Part shown: piece by piece, positions 1,229-54,837 of the stretch
Layout: each line of letters starts with the position of its first letter
How positions within the stretch are numbered: the first letter of the stretch is position 1
Notes under the pieces: model-generated
The model's database searches: none
Told to the model about the DNA's origin: nothing
The model's input: the letters and a program-made list of their open reading frames with translations, nothing else
From: Picocystis sp. L7
Taxonomy: Eukaryota; Chlorophyta; Picocystophyceae; Picocystales; Picocystaceae
DNA: 64,000 nucleotides
Reading direction: 5' to 3'
Assembly (NCBI GenBank): GCA_020975725.1
Contig: QXJR01000009.1
Location: 372,001 to 436,000 of the forward strand
Position numbers and translations under genes: made by a program

Positions 1229-4200
1229 TTAGAACCAAGGCATCCACCATATGTACATTTTTCCGAGGTTGTCCTTGCTGGTTGCTTCAGTGATGAGGCT
1301 GTGCACTTGCCCTTCCACAGATAGTGGCAATGATGGTGTGGAACGTACCCCCACCAAGACTCCATCAAGTCTCCCTTGAATTGTTGAAAGGGCTTTCCGA
1401 GCAAGTGCATTGTCGGCTTGGTCTGGACTGGTGGTGTGCCTTGTGTGCTTCGTCCACTCTACAAGCGGATCGTGGACAAAAGTCTCCAGTATACTCATAA
1501 GTGTGTTGCGATGTACCCGCAGCACATTGAGTGCAATTTCACACATTCTCGTAAACGATCCTTCTACTCCAGATATCCCAAACCCATCCACAACGTTCTG
1601 CGTGAGTCGAAAAGGAACCACCTCAGGCTTTTCTAACGCAAGCCCTTTGTCAAAGAGACAACTGAAGTCAACATGCACACAGTCCCCATTGGAGGAATCA
1701 ATGAGAATGTTCTCCCCATGCCGATCTCCAAGGCCTACCACATGCCCCACCATTGACCATACTGCTGCGGTGCGGGTGAAATTATTCCGGGCGTTGTACC
1801 AAACCGAGGGTTCAGGGAACATCCGCAGCAGCCACACGTGGAGGCGAGGGGGAAACATTTCAAGCACAGTGTTCAAGAGATCTGAGGGCGAGCCACCCTG
1901 TGCACTATCGTATATCTTCTTTATCTGCGGATTGGTTCGCCTGCGGTCAAAGAGCCCTTCCCTGGTGTACACGTCTTGACACACATGCCGTAGACCAGTG
2001 GTATTGTACACCCATTCAATCAGCCCACACTCTTCGGTCAGGGGTATTACTCCAAAAGTCCTTATGTACATGCTTCGTCTCCTGCTTTGTGCATTTTTCA
2101 AAAGAAGTCGATTAAGTACTGTTGTAAACTCCATCATGCGTGCATCCTTTCTCAGGTCGTCCTTCGGTTTGCATAGAAACGTGTACTCAACGCCATCAGT
2201 GCCAAGCAGCCTCAACTTCTTGGGTCGTTGGAGAGATAAGAGCACCTCAACATCATCCTGGAACCCCTCGATCTTCACCGACACTTCTGGAGCAACAGGT
2301 CTTCCCCCATCCACAACCTTTCCATCGGTTGGCAGCTCCACAGTGAGGCATTTAAGGACGGGCATCATGATTTCAAGCGGCATCATGCGCTTCATGAAGC
2401 TGAAATCATTGGTCAAGGAAAAGGTCTTCTGACCACGTGGTACACTATGAAAGCAGAGCTTGATGAGCTGGTCTACGAAAGGAATGAATTGCTTGTACAA
2501 TTTTTTTCCTTCGGCATTGGTTGCATGCTTCTTTCCAACACCAATGATTTCATTCGCATTGCTTTTGCGTTGAGAAACAGTGGATTTCGTCATTGCCACC
2601 AAGGCCCAGAGTGTTTGCTGGGGGTAGCACTGCAGGACTTTTCCAATGATGTGCGCTGTGATCTTTTGTACGTCAGGGTTTATGTGGGCAATGTGAGAGG
2701 TCAGCTGAGGCAATGCAGTAAGCCACACGTACACTGGCAACATTTTGGAGCATTGCTGAACGACGACCATCACATCATTGGCAATTCGTCTTTCTTTGGA
2801 AGGGATATTGCCTTCCATACGAGCAAGTTCAGCACCAAAGTCGTACCACAAGGTCAACATCCTTGGCAAGCTCTCGAAAATGTGCATGTGGCCATACTTG
2901 AGAGAGTAAGAGTAATTACGAATCACCTCTGTCAGATATTCCAAGTAATGTCGCTCGAGCACTTCTGGGTCCTTGCTAGCTTTTTTGGTCGCTGATGTGG
3001 AAAGTGCTTCCCCACCGTTGTGACGTTGGCGTTTTTTAGCATCGGCTTGTAATTCGTCCAAATATCTCGCAAAGTAGAAGTATCCCTTTTCCCAGTGCTT
3101 CTCAAGATCGATCACTTGCTTGTAGTGGCTAATGATGGAGCCTTGTTGCATCTGGCCAGTCATGTGTGCCCAACGAGCAAGACGTAGCAGCATTTTGGCA
3201 TCCTGCCTACCAGTGGCTTGCGGTTTTTTCCTCAAAGAGCGATGCAGAACAGAAATAGCATGATGGCCTTGCCCTACATCCCACAGAAGCTTTGCTTGCT
3301 CCAACTCGAAGTACGGCACTCCTTTAGCTTCGGCCTCTGATACTGCCATGAAAGCAGCATCATAGTGAGCAGACTTTCTGCAAATCTTTGCATACTCAAG
3401 AATGCAATTGCCTGCTTCCTCCTGAAGACCCAGAAAAGTGTAAAGTTGGCGACGTAGTGAGAGAATGGGCTCACGAATGGACAGTGATGGTTGCGTAGCA
3501 GACAATCTCTCGTTCCATTTTGAAAGTGATCTTAACATGTGCCTTTCCCCCACTTCCCCTTTGGACTTTTTGGAGTGGAGTTCAAAAGTCTCCTCCACTT
3601 CCTGGACCATTTGCAGCCAGACTACGCGAGGATATGCTCGCTCGTACGAGTCCATACTGGCAGCAGACAAGTAAGACATGGCTTCATACCTGGACCTTTT
3701 AACCTCCTCGTAGAACCACATTGGATCCTCACTACGCATTGCCTGGAGTAGTTTACCAACACGAATTCCCTCTCCTTCAATAATAGATCCAAAGCCCCCC
3801 ATACTGCGAAGAGCCAATACATCTGCTCCTGAGGTTCCCAGGTAGTCATCCAGCATATCCCATTGTCCAAGCCTCCAGGCTGCCTCTGCTCCCCTCGAAG
3901 CAAACTGAGCCTTCCTTAAAGGCATAAGATGCATTAAACCATTGGCCTGGGTCATCACAGCACTCCAGTGTCCCATTTTTAGCAGGCAACGAAGGTATCC
4001 ATCGTCATGAATTTGTTGTTGAGCACAGGAAATGTCTTGTTTGCCTGCAGCGGAGGTGCCTGTAGCCCATGAGCTAGTCTGACGCTCTCTCTCGTAAAGT
4101 GATAACGCCTCCGTCCATTTCCCAGTTGATTCAGCAATGATGAGTCTATCATCGATTTTTTCGCCTGACTCTCGCAAGCTAGCAAGCCCAGCCAAGCTGT

Positions 4201-7200
4201 CAGGATCTTCGAGACCTCGATACACCCTTTGCAGTAATTGTACCCCTTCGTCGTCAAACTTGTTGCTCACCCTTGCACATGGATTCAAACCTCCTAAATT
4301 GTCCGTCTTTTTTCTCAAAAATTCTTCCGTGTACTTAAGTGCCCTTGCGTGGGCATTCACCCGAAATGCTGCAGAAGCTAGATGCTCCACTGGAATAGCA
4401 TCCAAAAGTGATGCCACATAAGTGTCGTCTGCCCTTTCCTCTTCCTTCTTCGACCTGTTTTCCTCTACCCATGTACTCAAAGCATCTACCAATGCAAAAG
4501 CTTCATGTGTACTTACTTCAAGCATTCCCTCCGAATCGTGAGGAGCATTCCTTGAGTCTGGGAGATGCCCATGCAAAATCGCTGAAACCTCTTTGAATAT
4601 ATCAACTCGTGCTACTTCGTCTGCATGCAAAATAACATTGTGTACGATAAATGGTAGTAGGAACAAGGTGGTGGACATATCATGTCGAAAGACGCCCTGA
4701 CATGCACGAAACAGCAGGCCCTTTGTCCCGGTTGCTCGAGCTCCAAGGGACCGAATCCAGAGGAGGACCCACCTTCTGAAGCTCATTGGCCTAGATGTAA
4801 ATATCGGTGTTTCATTCATGATAGATGAGCTTTTCATTTGGAGAGTAAAGTTCGATGTCAGACATGGCCGAACTATCTCCTTGACATCCTCAGAAAGGTT
4901 TGCCCACAGGGCACTACGTGGTGTTTGGCCTCCTGAAAGACAGATGGGTGTATCTGCGCTTGCTCCGGGCTCAGCTTTCAAAATCTCCTGGATTGCATAT
5001 GCCGCTGCGTCAAGGGTATCGATATCTGAAGCACCACTCAGGACACGTGATAAATGATCTTCAATCAATTTAAGAGCCAGGATGTCATCTGGTATGCCTA
5101 TCTGTACAGGAGTACGTGTTTTGATATTGAGCCTAGCAGGATCAGCGGCGCCAATCATCCCAAGGCACCTCGCTGCTCTGAGCTGCACTCTGTATCGGAG
5201 CAGAGAACGTGCTTCTGAACCAGCACATCTCAGCAATGTTGAGATGCAATTTTCAAGCAGCAGGAGCTCTCCACAGTCTGAGCTTTTCTTGCGGCCTGGT
5301 AGGCTGACAAAATACCTCCCCACCCCTGCAGGCCACCCCTTGTGTGTACCCAATAGTGCGACAAACTCGCCCAGCGCTGCATGCCTCACTGCAAGGCTCT
5401 CATGATGAAGCGACTCCTCCAGAAGTTTGAGCTTGTCGTGGTTTGTAAGGTGCCCTCTCTCTGCCTCAATCGCCTTGGTTATCTGCTCAGTTTCTGGAAG
5501 TGCTGGAAGGGGAGGCATTAATCTCAATGCACCCTTGACATGCTCTTTACTGCTGGCTGATGGATGCAAAAGGAAGTCCAGAGCTCCTGCAGTTGCTTCT
5601 GCAAGCGACTTGTTTTCTTCAAAATTAGGTAGCAGTACTACCAATGCTTGTGGACCCACACGTGGGAGTGCAGCTGGCATGTGCTTGATCAGAGCCCGTA
5701 GAAATGTTTCCCAAGCACCGATCACAGCCATCCTTGCTGACTGCCTTAGCTCCAACGTGGAATGATGCAGAGATGAATTATTGGAGAGGTCAGTAGCCTG
5801 GGTCAGCAATGCAGTCACATGAGGTACAAACTCAACTATGCTGCTCTCAATGAATATCACTAAAACATTGAGGCAGCGTACCACCTGTAAGGCTTCATTG
5901 CCAGTAACTTTTTTCGACTTGAAGTGGTCTCCCAACGAGTTCAGAAGCATCACAAAGTGACCCTTGAGCAACCCAGGCACATTTGCCTCTTTCGTGATTA
6001 TTTGGGCGACTTGCTGAAGCATATCATGTGTACGGTCCCTTGTTTGCGCTGAATTGGCATATTTTTCCTCCCCCAATTTCCATACAACCTGCCTGAGTAA
6101 TGCAGGCAAACATGATTCCAGTTGCGAAATAAATCCCCAACCAGTCACAGACTCCATGTACTGCATCAGTCTATCAATTTCCTGAATGTCACTTCCCATT
6201 AGTGCCTCGGCAATGGCATAATGGCCATATTGCACGAGAAGAGCGGCAGCGCATGTGTCTTTCCCTTGAAGTGCAGAGAATCTACGTGCAATCTCCGTCA
6301 GGATATCTGTCTGCTGCTGTTCCACAAGACTTGGCAACGTCTCCTTTACGATGAGTTGTAAAAGGTTGACTTCTGCCTCCTCTAACACATGCTTTGCTAG
6401 CTGGTTCAGTAGCCTGGGCCGTGTGATTAAATTCCTTACCACATACTCAAGCACAGGACGACTACCACAAAGCATTTCGTACGCAGAGGACCCTTGATTT
6501 TTGGCAATAGCTTGAATCTCAGCTGCAGCTGAGGAGCTCACCAATGGAGCTCCACTATCAAGCTGGCCAATCAGCAGGAGAAGGGATAGAAGGAATGCCT
6601 GGCGGCTCTGTAAACTTCTTCCGAGTGCTCCGAGGCACGCAACCGCTGCTTTTGCAATGCCAGGGTCCTTTGCATTCTCAAGTTTTGACCTTAGTTCTTG
6701 AACTAGTTGAACTTCCAAGCTATGGAAGTCTACAGCCTTGGAAGATTTGCTCACTGCGTTTTCTTGCGATGGAGTGTCTTGGTTTTCCTTGGTGTAATCA
6801 TTTCGGAAAACCTCTACAAGTACCCACGGCTGAGCAAACGCCACTACCACAAGTGGTGTGACCTGGATCACTTCAACATGTCCCGTCAAAGAAGCATGGA
6901 GGCAATCCATTAGGGTAGCACCATACCCTTGGAACATCTCTTTCGAGTCTGAAAAAAGGAAACACCCAAGGGCAGCCACGGAGGCAGCACCCGTGCAAGG
7001 CTGTGAGCCCTGCACAATGGAGTGCGTGATACTGTCCAACAGCAAAGGGTGTGGCACAAGGTCTGCAATTCTCTCTAAGTTCAGAGGTTGGCACGTTCCC
7101 TGGGTTTGACATCCAGGAAGTTTCTCAATGCCAGCAGCTGCGAGCAAAGTGTCGGCTGGAGGGACTTTTCCATTGCTAGCCCAGTTACATGCAGTTTTGC

Positions 7201-9118
7201 ACCAAGATTTCACAGCGGCAAACATTGGGATGGCAGAAACAACGGTGGAGTAGATTGCTGTCGCCCTTACGAGATCAGATTCGTCCTTTAGAAGAGCATG
7301 GAGACTGAGAGAAACCTCATCCGGAATCATGCTACCTGCATTCAAGAGGTGTGCACTAACAAGAGGGATCAATGTGCAAGCTGCCATGCGCAAGGAAATT
7401 GAGTGTTCTGCACATCCCTTTTGAAGAAGTTCAATGATGAGGCTGTTTATACCCCTGTCAATGTAGTTAGACTGGATAAGCAGTTTCAAACCATCTACCC
7501 TGCAGCCCTCAAGTGCAACATCGCTCCAGGACCCTAAGAGAAGTTGGTCGACTCCTGATCTTAGGTGGGCATGCTGGAAATCAAGATGAGCTAATACCCT
7601 CATCAAAGCAATGGTAACATCACTACGTTTAGCGCACTGTGACTGGACACCCCATAGAAGCCAATGCTCGATGCAACGCTGAATGCGCTGGTCCAGTGCT
7701 TTTTCTTTGGGGAGAGCGTCCAATAGAAAGCCTAGACACTGGGCCCTAGCCAGGAGCTCATCAGTCGACAACAGCTCTGTTTCTGGCTCAAGGACCCTCA
7801 GTAGTGCATCCATGGATTTCTTCCCACCTTGGTGTTCATTCTTACCTTGGTACTGATAGCTCTCTTCGTCCACAACCACTTTTTGTTTCTTCATCACCGG
7901 CTGATCACTTGGTTGATCTTCATTCTCAAACAGGATCCGTGTGTTTATAGTTTGGAAGAGCCCCTGCACAAAGCTCTGAGCTTGCCGTTTGACTGCATCC
8001 CTCACCAAGGGGACAACTACATGCACTGTCCCAATGCTTCCGTTGATGACCCTTCCAAGAAGCCTTCCAAAAGCGAGGAGAAGTTGGTGACCAGATGACT
8101 GGTTCAGGATGTACAATGAACTGCCCACGATGGCCTCTGAATAAGCACGCAGATCATCAATGTCGACAAGCTCTACCACTAAATCAACGCATTTGGCAAA
8201 GTTACTGGCAAAAAGACCACGAAGGGTGCTGTTTGAACTCTGGCTATGTTGCGCTGCCATGCTGAGCATGCAGGACAGAACAACATCATGGCAAAGTTGG
8301 GGCACAAGCAATGAATCGATTTGGTAGGTACAAACAATCCAGTCAAGGCATGCAACTTGCACGTCTAAGCCCTTGGACCTCATCATGTTGGCAATCATTG
8401 TGCATGTGCTGGCCAAGTCCAGCACCTCCGATAACATAGGATGTTCCCCCAAGAAAGATGCCAACGTACAGCAGCTTATGACAAATAATTTCTCGCAAGA
8501 CTCACTGTCTAGATGGTCCATTTCTACCGACCAAAAGGGGCAATCTTTGCCGATTGTGTCCAAGGCTCCAGACTCGGATAATTCTGCCCATTGTTGTTGA
8601 GATGCCTGAAAACAGCGAGTGCGTCCTTGTTCTACGCCTTGGCTCTGCAGCAGGCCCTGGGCATTTCTGGCACTTGTTGCCATCATTTCCCCCAGTTCCG
8701 ATACCATGGTCTTGCAGACAGGCAGTTGCCTCTCTTGCGCCAATCGAAGCAGGGCGTGTGAAAGCTTGTAGACGAGGATGGTGACTGGAGAGACTTTGGT
8801 GGACTCGAGGTGGGTAGCGAAACACCTCGAAAGGGTACTGACAGGATTCATGACACCTTTCTCCAGGAAGACAGAAGGAAATCGATCGACTGCCAGTAAC
8901 ACTAGCCTCAGAATGGATGCTTTCTCCGTTTCACTCGAAGATTTCGTACCCAAGTATTCGTCCATCAGTGCGGGTAGCAACGATCGCAATCTCGAGACCA
9001 GCGCCGAAGGCTCGGACTGCGTTCCATCTTCTCCAGCATGTTGCATAATTTCTCCGAGTTCCTGCAGCAGGAAGCTCAGCTGTGCATCCGACATCCTTTT
9101 GGACTGGCTGGGTGGCAT
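1229..9118 (-). CDS. ATR: ATR-type PI3K-like checkpoint kinase
   Basis: A 7.9 kb uninterrupted frame encodes about 2629 residues, close to the usual ATR length (about 2600-2700). The C-terminus has the kinase N-lobe (VKIEGFQDDVEVLLSL region), the catalytic loop GLGDRHGENILID, the metal-binding block HVDFSCLFDKG, and a FATC tail ending KMYIWWMPWF. The wording DCVHVDFSCLFDKGLALEKP and PFRLTQNVVDGFGISGVEG is ATR-like rather than ATM-, TOR- or DNA-PK-like. The remainder is HEAT/FAT solenoid. Known role: sensing RPA-coated single-stranded DNA and signalling replication stress in the nucleus. The frame can be extended to 9199 only with a GTG, so the first in-frame ATG (9118) was chosen. No intron is needed. 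The 5' third is GC-rich and the 3' half clearly less so. Confidence 0.93.
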   Translation of the reverse strand: MPPSQSKRMSDAQLSFLLQELGEIMQHAGEDGTQSEPSALVSRLRSLLPALMDEYLGTKSSSETEKASILRLVLLAVDRFPSVFLEKGVMNPVSTLSRCFATHLESTKVSPVTILVYKLSHALLRLAQERQLPVCKTMVSELGEMMATSARNAQGLLQSQGVEQGRTRCFQASQQQWAELSESGALDTIGKDCPFWSVEMDHLDSESCEKLFVISCCTLASFLGEHPMLSEVLDLASTCTMIANMMRSKGLDVQVACLDWIVCTYQIDSLLVPQLCHDVVLSCMLSMAAQHSQSSNSTLRGLFASNFAKCVDLVVELVDIDDLRAYSEAIVGSSLYILNQSSGHQLLLAFGRLLGRVINGSIGTVHVVVPLVRDAVKRQAQSFVQGLFQTINTRILFENEDQPSDQPVMKKQKVVVDEESYQYQGKNEHQGGKKSMDALLRVLEPETELLSTDELLARAQCLGFLLDALPKEKALDQRIQRCIEHWLLWGVQSQCAKRSDVTIALMRVLAHLDFQHAHLRSGVDQLLLGSWSDVALEGCRVDGLKLLIQSNYIDRGINSLIIELLQKGCAEHSISLRMAACTLIPLVSAHLLNAGSMIPDEVSLSLHALLKDESDLVRATAIYSTVVSAIPMFAAVKSWCKTACNWASNGKVPPADTLLAAAGIEKLPGCQTQGTCQPLNLERIADLVPHPLLLDSITHSIVQGSQPCTGAASVAALGCFLFSDSKEMFQGYGATLMDCLHASLTGHVEVIQVTPLVVVAFAQPWVLVEVFRNDYTKENQDTPSQENAVSKSSKAVDFHSLEVQLVQELRSKLENAKDPGIAKAAVACLGALGRSLQSRQAFLLSLLLLIGQLDSGAPLVSSSAAAEIQAIAKNQGSSAYEMLCGSRPVLEYVVRNLITRPRLLNQLAKHVLEEAEVNLLQLIVKETLPSLVEQQQTDILTEIARRFSALQGKDTCAAALLVQYGHYAIAEALMGSDIQEIDRLMQYMESVTGWGFISQLESCLPALLRQVVWKLGEEKYANSAQTRDRTHDMLQQVAQIITKEANVPGLLKGHFVMLLNSLGDHFKSKKVTGNEALQVVRCLNVLVIFIESSIVEFVPHVTALLTQATDLSNNSSLHHSTLELRQSARMAVIGAWETFLRALIKHMPAALPRVGPQALVVLLPNFEENKSLAEATAGALDFLLHPSASSKEHVKGALRLMPPLPALPETEQITKAIEAERGHLTNHDKLKLLEESLHHESLAVRHAALGEFVALLGTHKGWPAGVGRYFVSLPGRKKSSDCGELLLLENCISTLLRCAGSEARSLLRYRVQLRAARCLGMIGAADPARLNIKTRTPVQIGIPDDILALKLIEDHLSRVLSGASDIDTLDAAAYAIQEILKAEPGASADTPICLSGGQTPRSALWANLSEDVKEIVRPCLTSNFTLQMKSSSIMNETPIFTSRPMSFRRWVLLWIRSLGARATGTKGLLFRACQGVFRHDMSTTLFLLPFIVHNVILHADEVARVDIFKEVSAILHGHLPDSRNAPHDSEGMLEVSTHEAFALVDALSTWVEENRSKKEEERADDTYVASLLDAIPVEHLASAAFRVNAHARALKYTEEFLRKKTDNLGGLNPCARVSNKFDDEGVQLLQRVYRGLEDPDSLAGLASLRESGEKIDDRLIIAESTGKWTEALSLYERERQTSSWATGTSAAGKQDISCAQQQIHDDGYLRCLLKMGHWSAVMTQANGLMHLMPLRKAQFASRGAEAAWRLGQWDMLDDYLGTSGADVLALRSMGGFGSIIEGEGIRVGKLLQAMRSEDPMWFYEEVKRSRYEAMSYLSAASMDSYERAYPRVVWLQMVQEVEETFELHSKKSKGEVGERHMLRSLSKWNERLSATQPSLSIREPILSLRRQLYTFLGLQEEAGNCILEYAKICRKSAHYDAAFMAVSEAEAKGVPYFELEQAKLLWDVGQGHHAISVLHRSLRKKPQATGRQDAKMLLRLARWAHMTGQMQQGSIISHYKQVIDLEKHWEKGYFYFARYLDELQADAKKRQRHNGGEALSTSATKKASKDPEVLERHYLEYLTEVIRNYSYSLKYGHMHIFESLPRMLTLWYDFGAELARMEGNIPSKERRIANDVMVVVQQCSKMLPVYVWLTALPQLTSHIAHINPDVQKITAHIIGKVLQCYPQQTLWALVAMTKSTVSQRKSNANEIIGVGKKHATNAEGKKLYKQFIPFVDQLIKLCFHSVPRGQKTFSLTNDFSFMKRMMPLEIMMPVLKCLTVELPTDGKVVDGGRPVAPEVSVKIEGFQDDVEVLLSLQRPKKLRLLGTDGVEYTFLCKPKDDLRKDARMMEFTTVLNRLLLKNAQSRRRSMYIRTFGVIPLTEECGLIEWVYNTTGLRHVCQDVYTREGLFDRRRTNPQIKKIYDSAQGGSPSDLLNTVLEMFPPRLHVWLLRMFPEPSVWYNARNNFTRTAAVWSMVGHVVGLGDRHGENILIDSSNGDCVHVDFSCLFDKGLALEKPEVVPFRLTQNVVDGFGISGVEGSFTRMCEIALNVLRVHRNTLMSILETFVHDPLVEWTKHTRHTTSPDQADNALARKALSTIQGRLDGVLVGVRSTPSLPLSVEGQVHSLITEATSKDNLGKMYIWWMPWF

Positions 9119-9630
9119 CCTGTTGGAGTAGGATTCCTTCTCCTTCCTCCTTAGGTCCGTGACGGCGGCGAATCGACTCGTATCCTCCCTTCGATCCACC
9201 AGGCTCCCTTCTTCGCGTTTTTAAGTCTTTCTGTACCTCCCAAGCGCGCTACGTTCGCTTTTCGATGCCTTCCAGTGCGCACATCGTTCTGGCGCGCTTC
9301 TCGCTTCGTCTGTTCTCGGTTTCGACCGGTTCCACACCGGGATCGAACCCGGCTGCGTTTCCTTTTCGAACCCGAGGTCTTTTCTTTTCAACCCCGTTGT
9401 CCCCTCCCAAAGACACGTCTTTTCCCCCCCACACGCACTCACACACGTACAAACCGAAACCTGTGCCCCCCTCCCCCTCACCACCGGGAGGATCCTCAGT
9501 TAAGCGATGGGTTAACTGGGAAGGGGGATGGCTGGATCCATCGTGAGGCGAGGAGAGGCGAGCGCAACGCCATCGCCCAAGCCACGTACGGCCGCGTCGA
9601 AGCGAGCGCTGCGGTTCGCTGGAGGTCGCC
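9119..9630. promoter_or_regulatory. Bidirectional promoter region ATR / TAB2
   Basis: A 512 bp gap between divergent start codons. It holds a cluster of TTCGA-centred words: GGTTTCGACC at 9319-9328, GATCGAACC at 9341-9349 inside a 16 bp palindrome, and TTTTCGAACCCG at 9363-9374. Related words recur in other 5' flanks of this window. No conventional TATA box was recognised. Confidence 0.5.
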
Positions 9631-16429: not shown

Positions 16430-16489
16430 GGCGACGCCGTCCGTCCCGCTTCGACTCGCCAGTGCTGAACCCCCTCTCCTTCCCTCCCT

Positions 16490-16886
16490 ATCAACCCCCC
16501 TTTCAACCCCTCTTTCAACCCCTCTTTCTATCTTCTTTCAACCCCTCTTTCTATCTTCTTTCAACCCCTCTTTCAACCCCTCTTTCTATCTTCTTTCAAC
16601 CCCTCTATCAACCCCTCTTTCTATCTTCTTTCAACCCCTCTTTCAACCCCTCTTTCTATCTTCTTTCAACCCCTCTATCAACCCCTCTTTCTATCTTCTT
16701 TCAACCCCTCTTTCAACCCCTCTTTCTATCTTCTTTCAACCCCTCTATCAACCCCTCTTTCTATCTTCTTTCAACCCCTCTATCAACCCCTCTTTCTATC
16801 TTCTTTCAACCCCTCTTTCAACCCCTCTTTCTATCTTCTTTCAACCCCTCTTTCAAACCCTCTTTCGAACCCCCTTTCAACCCCTC
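16490..16886 (+). repeat. Pyrimidine-strand minisatellite, 35 bp higher-order unit
   Basis: About 400 bp built from three words: CCCCTCTTTCTATCTTCTTTCAA (23 bp, here described as a single module), CCCCTCTTTCAA (12 bp) and CCCCTCTATCAA (12 bp). The 23 and 12 bp modules alternate, giving a 35 bp period repeated about nine times, with 12-mers alternating between TTTCAA and TATCAA. The plus strand is almost pure pyrimidine apart from A, so strand asymmetry is extreme. It lies 60 bp upstream of the ETL1 ATG and 300 bp upstream of the rhodanese-FSH1 ATG. The last modules read TTTCGAACCCC, close to the common 5'-flank motif of this genome. Confidence 0.95.
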
Positions 16887-47072: not shown

Positions 47073-47077
47073 GTTTG
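47073..47077. repeat. Target site duplication, left copy (GTTTG)
   Basis: The five bases GTTTG directly before the 5' LTR are repeated directly after the 3' LTR (54833-54837), as expected for Ty3/gypsy integration. Confidence 0.9.
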
Positions 47078-47807
47078 TGTTGCATAAGGCAGTGGCCTCC
47101 TCCTGTGAACGAGGCCCACCAGGGTCCGTCGAGACCCTGGCTTACGGGTCCGAACCATCGAGGCTACCCATCGAGTAAGGGATCTGATATCCCTTTGGAA
47201 TACAACGACAGTACCGTTCCGGAACCAGAACCAGTTTCCCCCGGTCGCATTGAAGCACGGTCGCCCCCCGATCAGAACGGGCTTCTTGTAAGGGGAACCG
47301 GGGACTTTGATCGAGACAGACCGAAGGGAACCAGCCGACCCCGTCCCAATCCACAATTGTGAGGGGTGGGCCTGAGGGGGCTGAACGGTGCCGAACAAGT
47401 GACAGCTCACAGTCGCCCCGGGGCGAGCAAAATGGACGGTCAGGTGTGACTTAGAGGAGGACGAAGGCGGATAAGACACCCCCTTTGCTCCAATTCCAAC
47501 CGCCAGTGAGAGGCGGTGAGAGAGGTAGACCTATCGTCCCTCTTTGCTTTGTGATAGAACTTGACTTTGCCAACCACCAGCGCGCCTCCTTCCGTCCTCT
47601 CTTGACGACTTGCTGAGGCCTACGCGCTTGCCCAACCACCAGGAGGTCGGCCTCGCTAGGCACCACGCCTCGAGCCGGCTAGAAGGGGACTTTGTCCGCA
47701 AGTGCGAGGACCCTCGTCCAAGACCGGTGCACCGGCTCCTTCCCGACACACGCTCTCCTCCAAGGCACGTGTGTGAGTGTCCAAAACTCACGGACGCTTT
47801 TGCAACA
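47078..47807 (+). repeat. 5' LTR (730 bp)
   Basis: Begins TGTTGCA and ends TGCAACA, a 7 bp terminal inverted repeat with canonical TG..CA ends. Its copy at 54103-54832 is offset by exactly 7025 bp at both ends and no difference was noticed. Confidence 0.95.
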
Positions 47808-47853
47808 CTGTCTAAGCTTGTACTTGAGAGAAGACTGCCGTACGTTCAAGTAA

Positions 47854-49092
47854 ATGGAAGATCCGGAGCACACAACTCGAATGGGTTCACTCCGTAGGGA
47901 CTTGGAGGAAGAACGAGCCATGCGAAGCACGCTCCAAGAGCGCATTGCTGAGCTCGAAGGTCAGCTTGAAGCCTTGCAAACAAACCCAACTGATGGTGAA
48001 GAACAAAATATCACCGATGAGAACCAAGAAAATCAGCAAGTGACAACCGTAGGAGGGACGCATGCGCCCTCCGAGGAAGAGGGACTTCCTCATCTCACCA
48101 CATTGTATGGAACAGCCCTCCAGGACTCAAAGAACATACAAAAGGTCTCCCTGGAGAAGCCTGAAAAATTTACTGGACTGGAGCTTGATGAAAATCCATA
48201 TGCTTTAACTTACTGGTATCGTGATGTTGTGTGTTGGTGCCAAGCATACGCTCTCGACCGTCCGAAAGAGCAGTTGGTACTTGCGATCAGTCAAGCTTTG
48301 GGAGGCACAGCAAAATCAATGGTGCAGAATCTCATTATGCGCGATCCAGGTGCCCTCAAATCAGTGGAAGAATTGTACGCTTACCTCCGCCGTACGTTCC
48401 AGAATCAAGACCCAGGCCCTGAGGCATGGCGCGAATTTCATACTACCCGTATGCGCAGGAGCGAAAATGCTTTACAGTTTCTGAACCGGCTGGTGCAATT
48501 GACATTCGTCGTCAACGCAAGTACATCTCCTGTATGCCGTACGCTAACGGAGAATGATATATCAGCAAGGCTGCAGCATGGACTGCCAGCCTACCTCCAG
48601 CGAGCATTGTATAAGCACCTGGACCACCTGATTGATGTGGATAAAGTTCCTGACATGGAACCAGGAAACTTAGCATCAGTCATATTCAAGCTAGAAAAGG
48701 AAGCTGCTGAACAGCCCCGCAAAGAGACCAAGACAGCTGATGATCAATGGACGAATCGCTACGCAACTGCCCGTCGCAACAGCGATCACCGTCCCCGTTT
48801 GGAATCTATGCGAAGGCCAGTAGCTGCTGCGATGCCGGCGCCATCGAAGGATAATCAGGACAGCGGCTCCGCAAGGAGAGAGCGAAAGCGATTCGACGAT
48901 CTCGATGAAGGGCAGAAGAGTGCTATCATAAAGGTGCAGACTCGGCTATCGAACAAGCCGCTCGGAGCCAAGCTGTCCCAGGAAGAGAAGAACATGTGCC
49001 TTGCGCACGGGCTGTGCCAACGCTGCCGTCGTTACGGCCATGATCAGTCCTCATGCAAAATGGCATCTGTTATGGGTGCCCCAAAAAACTGA
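47854..49092 (+). CDS. Retrotransposon gag protein
   Basis: 412 residues. The N-terminus is a coiled coil ([20 protein letters not shown] region), followed by a retrotransposon gag-type helical domain ([17 protein letters not shown] to [12 protein letters not shown]) and, at the C-terminus, a zinc knuckle [14 protein letters not shown]. It would form the virus-like particle and bind RNA. Gag and pol overlap in different frames, the arrangement that many Ty3/gypsy elements resolve by programmed frameshifting. Confidence 0.88.
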
Positions 49093-52000
49093 GTACTCTC
49101 CGCCCGGTGACCCAGGTTACCGGAGCGGAGCCGGGAGCGAAACCAGCAGCAGCCCCGGTTACCAATGAAAGGACTCCTGTCTGCCTGAACTCATTGAGTA
49201 ATATAAGGCCTAGACAGGAATTCCTAGCTGCAGAAACTTACTTTGGAAAGAAAACGAACAAAATCAGGACACAAGCCTACCTTGATACATTAGCAAGCTA
49301 CTCATTCATCAGCGAGAAACTATTTCATGAACTGCAGTCCGCTGACCCAGCAGGGGTGACCTGGAAGAACACTGGCGATGTCGTGCAGTTCACCGTAGCC
49401 GTAGGCCAGCAGGTTCATACAGCCCCAGTAATTCAGGCCACCTTTACGATCGATGGCTTCCGTGGTCAAGTACCCTTCGCAGTTGCACCACTGGAGACAT
49501 TTGATTGCATATTAGGGGGGACCTTCTGTGACAAACACCTGATGGCCCTAGACTGGCAGAACCACCGAATGGTCTTAAAGAACAGTAATGGCAGAAAGCA
49601 CACTGTGTATGGAGATCACCAGTTCATCGCATCCAGAAAGCTGGACTTAATCGTCCCCAGATGCGAAGCTCGGAAGGCGGTACAGGACCCAGGCTGTCTA
49701 TTGCTTATGATACAGCCTCTGGATCCCAGACCAGAAATCATCGATGAAGAAGCAGACCTTGACCACATGCGGACAAAAGTCAGCGATGAATGGGAGCTGG
49801 ACCACAGCGATCAGTACCGGCTGGACCGACTGATCAATCACCGATATAAGGGCTTATTTGAGCCTCGTACGCAGCTACCGCCAGAGCGTGTCAGCGGAGA
49901 GGCCTTCAAAATACAGCTCACTGAAAATGCGACCCCGCAGTACAGGAATTATTATCGGCTATCCCCTCACCAGCAGGCTGCCCTAAAGGAGTTAATCAGC
50001 GAATACGTCGATGCCGGTAAAATGGACCTTTGTGCTGGCTCCAGCTGGGGAGCCCCAGTAATCCTAGTACCGAAGAAAGACGGGGGCTGGCGGGTCGTGT
50101 TTGACTACCGCCTGCTTAACAATGTTACTGTCAAGGACAGATATCCGCTGCCCCGTATAGATGACTACCTGCAGAACTTGAGAGGTGCGAAATACTTTTC
50201 CTCGCTGGATGCTTTGGATGGGTTCCACCAGGTTAGGATGGATCCTGCCGACATCGATAAAACTGCAGTGGTCACACCCTTTGGATCCTATGTGTGGAAG
50301 GTCATGCCCATGGGTGCTGCCAACGCGCCTGCGATGTTTCAGCGCATGATGAACAGAATATTTGGTCACCTGCTCTACTTAAAGGTGTACATGGATGACA
50401 TATTGGTGCATTCTGAAACAAAAGAACAGCATTTCCAACACCTTGAGGAATTCTTCGCTACTTGTGAACAGGCCGACATCCGGCTGAAACGATCGAAGTG
50501 TCACTTTTTCAGAAGTACTCTGGAGTGGGTAGGCTTTCGGATACGTAATGGACAGTTGGCGTGTACCAACCACCTACTTACCAAGATCCAGCAGTTCCCG
50601 CGACCGCAGTCGCAACGCGATAATATGGCCTTCCTTGGGCTGTGCCAATTCTATATGCGATTCGTTCCGCATTATGCTGAACTTACAGCCCCATTGACTG
50701 AGCTGAACCAGGCATCGATGAAACATGGGTTCACATCCTACTGGAAAGGCCCACAAGAAGAAGCTTATAACAAGCTGGTTGCAGCACTCACGAACCCACC
50801 TGTCCTGGCACTCTTCGATGAGGACCGACCGATCCGAGTCGAGACGGATGCTTCGGACATCGGCATGGGAGCAGTTCTGATGCAGCAGGATGAGCAAGGG
50901 GAGTGGCACCCAGTTGAATATTGGTCAAAGAAGCTGAATCAAGCCCAACAGAATTATCATCCAGCAGAGAAGGAAACCTGTGCCATCCTGTATGCTCTGC
51001 AGCACTGGAGACACTTGTTGTTTGGTCAGCACTTCAGCGTACTTACGGATAACAAAGCCAGCCATTTCCTCAACACCAAGTCTACAGAGCAGCTGTCTCC
51101 GCGCGAGATGCGATGGATTGAGAAATTAGCCTACTTTGCCCCCTTCACTGTTGAGTATAGACCAGGATCAGAAAATACTGGGGCAGACTACTTATCGCGC
51201 CATTCGGCTAAGGTGGACAGTGGATCAGTCTACTGCATACTGGATCTGTGCGCTGGTATGGGTACAACGCTACGTGCTTTGGAAATTGCTCTGCCTCCAT
51301 CCCCAGATATTACGATCGATTACATTGCCGTCGAAAGGGACCCAGATTGCCGCAGCGTCATACAGAGGGTGTTCAATCAAGTACGACTCGCCCGTCCAGG
51401 GCTGTTTACGCGCAAAGACATATTCCGTTACGGCAATGATGTGACCATATTAGGGCAGCGGCGAAAACTCCCCAAGGTACACTTACTTATAGCAGGAGTA
51501 CCCTGCCAGCCCTTTTCGCGAGCGAACACAGACCAAGGCAAACCTCCCCTGGGACTGTTTGACCAACGAGAGCTGTTCACTGCAGTTGCTAATATACACA
51601 AGCGCTTGAACAGTCCGGACTTTATATTAGAGTGCACCCTATTTGCTACTCACCTGGAATCTCACCTGGACACGATTGCTGAATGGTTTGGATCCCCAGT
51701 AGTTGAGGACCTGTCACAGTATGGGGCGCAGGCTCGTACAAGGTTATGCTGGACCTCACTACCCCCTCTGCAGGAACCTCAGCTCTCGATGGGACCAATA
51801 CCTCTTACCTGGCAGGAGTGCTTGGATGCTGGTGCAACAGTCCAACGCGATGCTCTGAATCGACCTCGCTTGAAATGTCCAACTTTGATGGCCAGCTCAC
51901 GGTCGCACAGCGATCGTGCGAAAACCACCTGGGTCCATGATGAAGGAGGCGAACTTCGCCCGCTGAGCGTTAACGAACGAGAGCGATTGGTTGGGATGCA

Positions 52001-54074
52001 GCCTGGTGATACTGCTGCAGCGAACGTAAGCGATGCAAGCCGGCAGCGCATGTGTGGTAATGCATTTCCAGTTGGATGGATTGCCCACATGCTGCTGCGT
52101 TGGCAAATTCACACACGGACGCTTAGACCGCTAGCATGCCGCAGTCCAGCAAGGACTGTGTGTGGATCGATCGCGTCAATTACTACGCCACGATCGGTGC
52201 GCTCAATGCTCTGCGCTACGCAAGGGGAGCCACCTACTCTACTGGAGCGTATACGCATCGCTGCCGACAATGATGCCAGTTACCAGGAACTTCTTCATTC
52301 TCCAACTGAAGACCATATTGTCAAGAACAACCTTCTGTTTACAAGCAGTGACAATGCACAACCAGTACTGGTGGTGCCTGCAGACAATAGCCTCAGACAG
52401 GAGCTGCTACATATGGTTCATGATCAGCGACACTTTGGTTCAGCGAGAACTTATGCAGATGCCTCAAGACACTTCACGTGGAAGGACCTGAAGAGACACG
52501 TCGAACTCTTCGTCGCACGCTGCCCTGTGTGCCAACTGCAGAAGCCCAGTAACCGGTCCCGACACAGTCAGCTTTGCCCAGAGTTCAGGTTCTTTCCGTA
52601 TCCTTTCCATACTGTTGTGATAGATGTGGTTGAAAATCTACCGCTCACTGCTCTTGGCCATAATGCTGTCCTGACAGTGGTGGACCGCTTCACGAAGTTC
52701 GCTATCTATATACCGATTCACTCCACATGGAGTGCGCATCGTCAGGCTCAGTGCTTAATGGATAACCTGGTGTACAAGTATCACACCCCAGTTCATATAC
52801 ATACCGACAACGGGCCCGCCTACCGATCGTTGTTTCAAGCTTTCTGTGCAGCTTTGGGAGTCCGCCATGTTACTGGCACTCCATATCATTCTCAATCGCA
52901 GGGAGGAGCAGAGCGACAGCATCGCACGCTCCTGCAAACACTGAGAACAACATGCTCTGATAAGCACCAATGGGATCTGTTCTTACAAGCAGCAGCTCAC
53001 GCATACAACGATTCGGTGCATACAGCTACTAACTTCTCACCCTTTCAGCTATTATTTGGATGTCCATCCAGACTGCCCTGGCATTTGCAGATTCCAACCA
53101 TAGAGGGCACTAATCAATCAGACATCGTAACGACATTCGACCGCCGGGTAACCAGTTTATTAAAACAGCACCGATCGGTCTACGATACTGTCCAGGCCAA
53201 TTTGCGTAAGGCTGCGGAGCGCATGGCTGCCGCTGCCGCGCATCGACCGAAGAAAACATTTGAAGCTGGGGACAAGGTGAAGGTGCAGTATGGTCTCAAG
53301 GGGCCTGCTGACAAACATAAGCTGGACCCATACTTTGTTGGCCCTTATGTCATTAAACGGGCGCTGAGGAACGGCTGTTACGAACTGGACTTACCACCAG
53401 GCTCTGCATTTTCAGAACGAATCCACGCTGATCGCCTTGAACACTGGACAGATTCAGACCTCACGCTATTTCCGATGGACGAAGAGCGACAACTGCAAGC
53501 GTCCCCGCTGCCGGACACAGATGCTATGCGTACCGAGTCAAGGCTGTACCGCATACGACGCTACCTGCTGCGCGATTTCTCCGCCTTCCCAGCGAGGCCA
53601 GTACGCTATTGGGTGGAAAGCAATCTGTCAGATCCTTCGCAACGCTACTTCTGGGTGGATGAAACAGCAGCTTTGTTGGATGACTTTTTACCACTGGAAG
53701 AACACAATGGGTGTATTCCAGAACAGGGTATCACAGATGCTAACTATGAAGCAGTTCAGACGCATAAGAAAACTACCTACCTGCAGTCACCCAGCCCAAT
53801 TATGACCAACACCTGGCCATTCACCAAGCTACCTTTTCAGACCAGACAGCGGCCACGCAAGCCGCAACGGACTGACCTAACCGGCGCAGTTGTGCAGGAG
53901 CTTTTCCATGAGGGGCAGGACAAGTCAGCTTATTATCAGGGGTTGGTGACAGATGAAGACAATGGGCTCTTTGAGGTGCTATGGACAGATGGCAAGAAAG
54001 ACTACTATCTTGCAGACCAGATCAGATCAATGTTGTATGACCCCATAGCATACATCTATGACTTTCAGGTATAG
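49053..54074 (+). CDS. Retrotransposon pol polyprotein with methyltransferase domain
   Basis: 1673-codon open frame. Domains in order: aspartic-protease-like region (about 49240-49560); reverse transcriptase (about 49900-50560) with [15 protein letters not shown] and YMDD; RNase H (about 50810-51200) with [14 protein letters not shown]; cytosine-5 methyltransferase (about 51228-52130) with DLCAGMGTT (motif I), GVPCQPFS (catalytic Cys loop, motif IV), QARTR (motif VIII), [14 protein letters not shown] (IX) and GNAFPV (X); integrase (about 52400-53080) with a HHCC zinc finger ending CPVC and a DDE core including [15 protein letters not shown] and GGAERQHR; then a GPF/Y-type region and a chromo/Tudor-like tail. 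The methyltransferase is in the same open frame as its neighbours. Confidence 0.92.
51228..52130 (+). other. Cytosine-5 DNA methyltransferase domain within pol
   Basis: About 300 residues between RNase H and integrase. Motifs I, IV, VIII, IX and X of C5 methyltransferases are recognisable and in the usual order, with a short target-recognition region between VIII and IX. The compact size resembles bacterial Dcm-type or DNMT3-like catalytic domains without extra regulatory modules. Confidence 0.88.
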
Positions 54075-54102
54075 CCGGGTTCGTCCCAGGGAGCCGGGAG
54101 AG

Positions 54103-54832
54103 TGTTGCATAAGGCAGTGGCCTCCTCCTGTGAACGAGGCCCACCAGGGTCCGTCGAGACCCTGGCTTACGGGTCCGAACCATCGAGGCTACCCATCGAG
54201 TAAGGGATCTGATATCCCTTTGGAATACAACGACAGTACCGTTCCGGAACCAGAACCAGTTTCCCCCGGTCGCATTGAAGCACGGTCGCCCCCCGATCAG
54301 AACGGGCTTCTTGTAAGGGGAACCGGGGACTTTGATCGAGACAGACCGAAGGGAACCAGCCGACCCCGTCCCAATCCACAATTGTGAGGGGTGGGCCTGA
54401 GGGGGCTGAACGGTGCCGAACAAGTGACAGCTCACAGTCGCCCCGGGGCGAGCAAAATGGACGGTCAGGTGTGACTTAGAGGAGGACGAAGGCGGATAAG
54501 ACACCCCCTTTGCTCCAATTCCAACCGCCAGTGAGAGGCGGTGAGAGAGGTAGACCTATCGTCCCTCTTTGCTTTGTGATAGAACTTGACTTTGCCAACC
54601 ACCAGCGCGCCTCCTTCCGTCCTCTCTTGACGACTTGCTGAGGCCTACGCGCTTGCCCAACCACCAGGAGGTCGGCCTCGCTAGGCACCACGCCTCGAGC
54701 CGGCTAGAAGGGGACTTTGTCCGCAAGTGCGAGGACCCTCGTCCAAGACCGGTGCACCGGCTCCTTCCCGACACACGCTCTCCTCCAAGGCACGTGTGTG
54801 AGTGTCCAAAACTCACGGACGCTTTTGCAACA
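54103..54832 (+). repeat. 3' LTR (730 bp)
   Basis: Direct copy of 47078-47807 with the same TGTTGCA..TGCAACA ends. A purine-rich tract GGGAGCCGGGAGAG directly precedes it and is the likely polypurine tract. Confidence 0.95.
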
Positions 54833-54837
54833 GTTTG
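54833..54837. repeat. Target site duplication, right copy (GTTTG)
   Basis: Matches 47073-47077 exactly. Confidence 0.9.

Follow-up and report, generated by a model that had tools for sequence, protein, structure and literature searches.

The 64,000-nucleotide stretch of the Picocystis sp. L7 genome analysed here (hereafter the window; C7:372001-436000 of a 20.5-Mb, 30-contig genome) harbours, at 47078-54832, a complete retrotransposon of the Ty3/gypsy type, with long terminal repeats (LTRs), a target-site duplication (TSD), gag and pol. Between RNase H and integrase, its pol encodes a full, unpermuted C5 cytosine methyltransferase that is DNMT3-like by sequence comparison and predicted fold, and such domains recur in at least 130 places of the genome. 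An earlier interpretation made from the letters of the window (the sequence-only reading) had placed a C5 methyltransferase at this very position; a significant Pfam match (DNA_methylase, E 5.6e-11, 42.9 bits versus a cut-off of 22) and the flanking domains both bear it out.

The methyltransferase domain spans 51228-52130 on the forward strand (pol residues 729-1029), that is, 301 stop-free codons inside a frame of 1676, and is also recovered by a search of the whole genome. Its motifs follow one another in the unpermuted order (domain numbering): I, DLCAGMG at 6-12; IV, PCQPFS at 92-97 (51501-51518, catalytic cysteine codon at 51504-51506); VI, E135-C136; VIII, Q168-R170-R172; the IX region; and X, GNAFPV at 277-282. 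The sequence-only reading had listed motifs I, IV, VIII, IX and X, which are indeed present in that order, but had passed over motif VI, which occurs here in the form ECT instead of ENV. In an alignment of 29 domains, chosen from 53 extracted from this genome, PCQPFS, C136, R170, R172 and G277-N278-A279 are invariant (29/29). Q168 is not invariant, nor is E135, which is kept in 28 of the 29 domains, the exception being L059 (K); in another alignment, the motif VI glutamate is kept in 12 of 12 domains. Beside motif VI, the window copy reads ECTLF and its nearest copy, L010, ECTPF, the leucine being common to L060 alone among the 29.

The predicted fold of the domain is nearest DNMT3A/3B, and a profile search against the PDB ranked DNMT3 best, with the bacterial structure 3lx6 next (1.1e-7). 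In a tree, the domain falls on the DNMT3A side (99/98), where DNMT3A is a 223-aa fragment and the sole DNMT3 reference, and where the enzyme of a viral contig (L076) is also found; it lies apart from the host MET1-, CMT-, DNMT2- and PWWP-type enzymes. Capture of one of these host genes is thus not supported by the tree. Capture of a bacterial Dcm was likewise set aside, since DNMT3 is preferred by the PDB profile search, by the fold and by the tree, though motif IV looks Dcm-like. The domain resembles the catalytic domains of DNMT3A and DNMT3B in fold, in best sequence match and in unpermuted C5 motifs with catalytic Cys and Glu, but its identity to them is about 22-25%, and a Pfam search of Pol matched no PWWP or ADD domain.

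All features of the element lie on the forward strand. The same five bases, GTTTG, adjoin both LTRs (TSD at 47073-47077 and 54833-54837). The 5' LTR (47078-47807, 730 bp, TGTTGCA...TGCAACA) and the 3' LTR (54103-54832) show no difference; the window copy is intact and, its LTRs being identical, was inserted recently. The gag open reading frame (47854-49092, 412 aa) has a C-terminal CxxC-type knuckle, read by eye, and gave no credible match in a Pfam search. The pol frame, open from stop to stop (49044-54074, 1676 aa), comprises an aspartic protease region (49257-49526; PF13650, E 9.6e-4, weak and below the Pfam cut-off), reverse transcriptase (RT; 50067-50543; PF00078, E 1.5e-37), RNase H (pol 592-698, 50817-51137; PF17917, E 1.7e-35), the methyltransferase, an integrase zinc-binding H2C2 domain (pol 1114-1169, 52383-52550; PF17921) and the integrase core (52602-52892; PF00665, E 5.5e-13); from RT onwards, each of these exceeds its Pfam cut-off. 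At the C-terminus, a small beta-barrel (53859-54044) looks weakly Tudor-like; its model was compared using VIA, and no chromodomain is claimed. The element is assigned to the Ty3/gypsy class because of its pol domain order, protease-RT-RNase H-integrase (protease weak), and the Pfam models matched; the TG..CA ends of the LTRs and the short TSD are in keeping with that class.

The 3' end of gag reads CCA AAA AAC TGA, and pol occupies the -1 frame. A AAA AAC is a canonical -1 slippery heptamer; here it lies in the gag frame at 49083-49089, immediately 5' of the gag stop, and would allow a -1 frameshift into pol. A predicted stem-loop (49098-49130) starts 8 nt past the slippery site, and the RNA fold of 49083-49190 reaches -40.9 kcal/mol (z -3.19), with 0 of 200 shuffles equally good. 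The same heptamer is found at the gag/pol junction of a relative, L084.

The copy number was obtained by searching the genome with the domain; 131 of 191 candidates were scored, so that the counts are a lower bound. At least 132 matches were found in at least 130 places (two copies give two rows each), at 48-100% identity. Stops occur inside the domain in 15 of 132 rows, and 56 rows (55 places) lie within stop-free frames of at least 1650 codons (hand count). The domain comes directly after RT-RNase H in 90 of 95 sampled copies; in each of the remaining five, the RT part is interrupted by stops. These genome-wide copies rule out chance or misassembly, the latter a possibility raised by the sequence-only reading. 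Viewed from the integrase side, a domain match lies at most 1.3 kb upstream in 121 of 150 integrase-finger matches. Four of the remaining 29 were fetched, and each proved to have the domain, which is broken or partial in three and lies in an open frame in the fourth; 19 belong to a related gypsy family (nine by fetched sequence, ten by identical finger score only), and six were left out of inspection. Some copies are exactly spaced, at 7149 bp (C4:1048782, 1055931, 1063080), 7024 bp (C3:345000, 352024) and 6605 bp (C11:536974, 543579), which suggests tandem elements sharing LTRs.

The sequence-only reading had asked whether all copies carry the domain. Nearly all sampled RT-RNase H copies do, but the related family, named after L072 and L074 and present in 19 places, does not: its RT is 51% identical to that of the window, and the corresponding slot of about 200 aa holds no recognisable C5 domain. 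L074 (C25:795700-803900) has a frame of 2669 codons, which reaches 2672 in other copies; further members include L073 and L113-L119. By eye, the L072 slot invites a reading as a dead DNMT relic, but this is not claimed: hhalign gives it a probability of 2.7% (E 0.017), and its score is reached by 28 of 5000 shuffles. Near its C-terminus, L074 instead matches the Pfam Dam domain (E 5e-12); read by eye, the usual NPP is replaced there by HPP.

The C5 domain has been under long purifying selection, its catalytic motifs being kept across diverged subfamilies. Compared with the window domain, the subfamilies that coexist in the genome are about 94-100, 75-76, 70-72, 58-63, 54-55, 47-49 and 36-38% identical. 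In 14 domain pairs, the proportion of synonymous differences (pS) is 0.70-0.82 and that of nonsynonymous differences (pN) 0.15-0.27; dN/dS is 0.07-0.10 in four of the pairs, at a dS of 2.0-2.8 that is near saturation, and the other ten are too saturated for its computation.

Relatives comprise 19 proteins, among them P0007 and P0022, and elements on further contigs. The element on L084, a contig filed under a Rhodobacteraceae metagenome-assembled genome (MAG), shares 77% identity with the window in its domain. L085:1715-6790 lies on a contig of MAG TMED88; this gag-pol retroelement has a 31% identical domain behind RNase H and, judged by eye, ahead of integrase. Both are probably eukaryotic sequences binned as bacterial. 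In P0022 (1504 aa), a distant gypsy with 32% identity, the C5 domain lies between protease and RT. The N-terminus of P0022 is weakly Dam-like (E 0.0025), and from its sequence this element possibly combines both methylases. The DNMT identity of L066 and P0021 to the window (47-48%) is above their RT identity (38%), and among the other lineages compared P0022 alone behaves likewise (DNMT 30 versus RT 28). A domain swap between gypsy lineages is not claimed, since approximately unbiased tests reject neither topology (p 0.12-0.49).

The host is a green alga with a compact genome, as the sequence-only reading had surmised: its light-harvesting proteins are of the chlorophyll a/b type (18 matches, one compared with the PDB and the rest by eye). 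It encodes a MET1-like BAH-methyltransferase (L001), a CMT-like enzyme whose embedded chromodomain was read by eye (L003), a DNMT2-like enzyme, by eye (L002), and a C5 methyltransferase followed by PWWP (L004, C1:535012-538299; PWWP E 4.4e-13). No stand-alone host DNMT3 was found among the 23 matches listed or among the candidates listed in the genome search; one of the 23, P0047, looks like a prokaryotic Dcm. L004 resembles the ChloroDNMT class of PMC12344493. EukProt lists two proteins as Pavlova_lutheri that match genomic copies here at 100% identity: P0007 matches L058 (301 aa) and P0026 matches L054 (243 aa). This organism, or one very close to it, therefore seems to be present in the EukProt dataset, though P. 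lutheri is a haptophyte and the host is green, and the dataset seems to be mislabelled or contaminated. Elsewhere in the window, at 16469-16850 in a forward frame, a tandem repeat of NPSFYLLSTPLS-type units adjoins a rhodanese-like gene.

Because DNA methylation usually silences transposons, an element that carries a methyltransferase presents a paradox. Architecture, copy number, motif conservation, purifying selection and a DNMT3-like predicted fold are established. The explanation I favour, which I regard as evenly poised between right and wrong, is that the window element belongs to a large, old Ty3/gypsy-type clade in which a DNMT3-like methyltransferase has become fixed in Pol, and that the enzyme, carried along in Gag-Pol particles, has the complementary DNA (cDNA) of the element itself as its substrate. 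The enzyme would be made solely within Gag-Pol, via -1 frameshifting, and small amounts would therefore be packaged into virus-like particles. There, beside RT and integrase, it would methylate the double-stranded cDNA of the element, probably at CG, before or at integration, after which the MET1-like and CMT-like maintenance enzymes of the host would keep the mark. The likely gain would be that new DNA arrives pre-methylated, so that it may be less readily recognised as foreign, or expression of the element and damage to the host may be reduced; this purpose is the least certain step of the proposal. A bolder version can be offered only tentatively: one ancient gypsy clade in marine green algae, and perhaps in other plankton, might possess a fixed DNMT3-like enzyme with which it places 5-methylcytosine on its cDNA, each copy thus being born marked for host maintenance; the related lineage of this genome would have taken a different path, with a methylase domain of the adenine type.

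Methylation might leave a mutational footprint in the copies. Unique C-to-T changes were scored in 13 related copies against the window copy, L017, the tandem twin of L016, being left out. They affect 47 of 416 CG, 64 of 540 CHG and 42 of 1059 CHH sites (H, any base except G; Fisher p 6e-7 and 8e-9), with high values at CAG (34/229) and CTG (28/229) and a low one at CCG (2/82); singletons alone give a similar pattern (35, 45 and 30, respectively). In eight further copies of the L072 family, the counts are small (CG 11/388, CHG 10/187, CHH 18/880). Beyond codon usage, the window pol has a codon-bridging deficit of CCG (z -5.6) and an excess of CAG/CTG (z +8.7), and in the L072/L074 family CAG/CTG is at about 0.5 of expectation while CG is at about 1.0. 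CpG loss gives no clear proof of self-methylation, the observed/expected CG being 0.68-0.98 in DNMT-bearing elements, about 0.9-1.0 in the L072 family (the one DNMT-less family) and 0.55-1.08 in host genes.

Several observations weigh against methylation of its own cDNA by the element. Transversions at CHG are raised too (38/540 versus 33/1059 at CHH), so mutability or constraint may contribute to the footprint. Moreover, a footprint at CG and CAG/CTG would be expected from CG methylation combined with CHG methylation of the plant type, and MET1- and CMT-like host enzymes would themselves leave it; it therefore does not point to the enzyme of the element. An ATR-like host gene (window 1229-9220) shares the CG-loss pattern (z -6.6 for CCG, +4.2 for CAG/CTG); the CAG/CTG excess with CCG deficit is probably long-term CG decay, in the elements and in this one host gene. 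The L072/L074 family has no recognisable C5 domain, and gypsy elements can thus amplify in this host without the C5 enzyme. PCQPFS and GNAFPV, the motifs IV and X of the domain, differ from PCNDLS and GRSWSV in DNMT3A. Finally, no DNA methylation was obtained in yeast with the domain of the closest described precedent, KnitGypsy-Dnmt3, an outcome that its authors deem inconclusive (PMC5890265).

The strongest of the alternatives, in itself unlikely, is that the enzyme acts in trans: Gag-Pol in the nucleus or cytosol would methylate chromatin near insertions and generate local silent chromatin, steered by the Tudor-like barrel. The DNMT3-like fold, the weak C-terminal barrel and the presence of integrase within the same polyprotein are all consistent with it. 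Less probable still is a nucleic-acid chaperone or RNA methyltransferase that binds element RNA or cDNA, genomic DNA methylation not being its job. Other C5 enzymes (DNMT2) work on RNA, RNA methylation has been raised for enzymes borne by long interspersed nuclear elements (de Mendoza et al., PMC5890265), and the inactivity of KnitGypsy on yeast DNA fits as well; yet the domain is nearest DNMT3, not DNMT2, and a pure binder would need neither the invariant catalytic cysteine nor the motif VI glutamate. That the domain shields the element, either by making its cDNA, once methylated, resistant to a nuclease or deaminase of the host or through competition of the enzyme with viruses or other mobile DNA, seems more improbable again. 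Morozov et al. 2019 suggest a competition role for transposon methylases (PMC6338049), DIRS elements with Dam are known (PMC5890265, PMC6338049), and the C5 domain of most sampled gypsies and the Dam-type domain of the related family could be two answers to one selective pressure; however, no link of the element to viral defence was found, restriction-like host systems not having been searched for. An occasional passenger, kept just because recent copies are young, deserves almost no credence: the identical LTRs of the window copy and the stops in 15 of 132 rows are in its favour, but it is contradicted by subfamilies down to 36% identity with PCQPFS invariant and by saturated synonymous sites with low pN, both of which need long selection.

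The precedents named by the sequence-only reading, in dinoflagellates and a charophyte, are real (PMC5890265). In Klebsormidium nitens, KnitGypsy-Dnmt3 combines a gypsy Pol with Dnmt3 (de Mendoza 2018, PMC5890265), so that the kind is already known. It shares with the window element a gypsy-type Pol, a non-rearranged DNMT3-like domain, intronless copies, retained catalytic residues and purifying selection, but its terminal repeats are DIRS-like (PMC5890265, Fig. 4 legend), whereas the window element has plain paired 730-bp LTRs and a 5-bp TSD. No protein or contig match listed here carries a K. nitens name. Elements are also reported to be fewer in K. nitens than in Symbiodinium, and activity was not demonstrated, whereas this compact green algal genome offers at least 130 places in 20.5 Mb, several subfamilies, young intact copies and host MET1- and CMT-type enzymes. 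SymbioDIRS-Dnmt3 of Symbiodinium also carries a DNMT3-like domain within Pol, active on CG in yeast, but is a DIRS element with a tyrosine recombinase rather than an RVE integrase (PMC5890265). DIRS retrotransposons with a Dam adenine methyltransferase likewise have a DNA methyltransferase as an accessory domain (PMC5890265, PMC6338049), but the enzyme is unrelated, and the Dam-type domain is found here in the L074 gypsy family, not in the window element; this C5-less family provides a natural contrast within the same genome. A sentence in Morozov 2019 mentions Ty3/Gypsy and DIRS elements encoding Dam and DCM from both green algae and charophytes (PMC6338049), so the general notion is already in print. 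The open-access literature, as far as its text was available, yielded no report of a gypsy with a DNMT domain from a chlorophyte. Within the literature searched, what is new is the group to which the host belongs, the form with plain LTRs, the number of copies, the depth of the subfamilies and the presence of a related, Dam-bearing family in one and the same genome. The element is therefore a new and unusually large example, not a new kind of thing.

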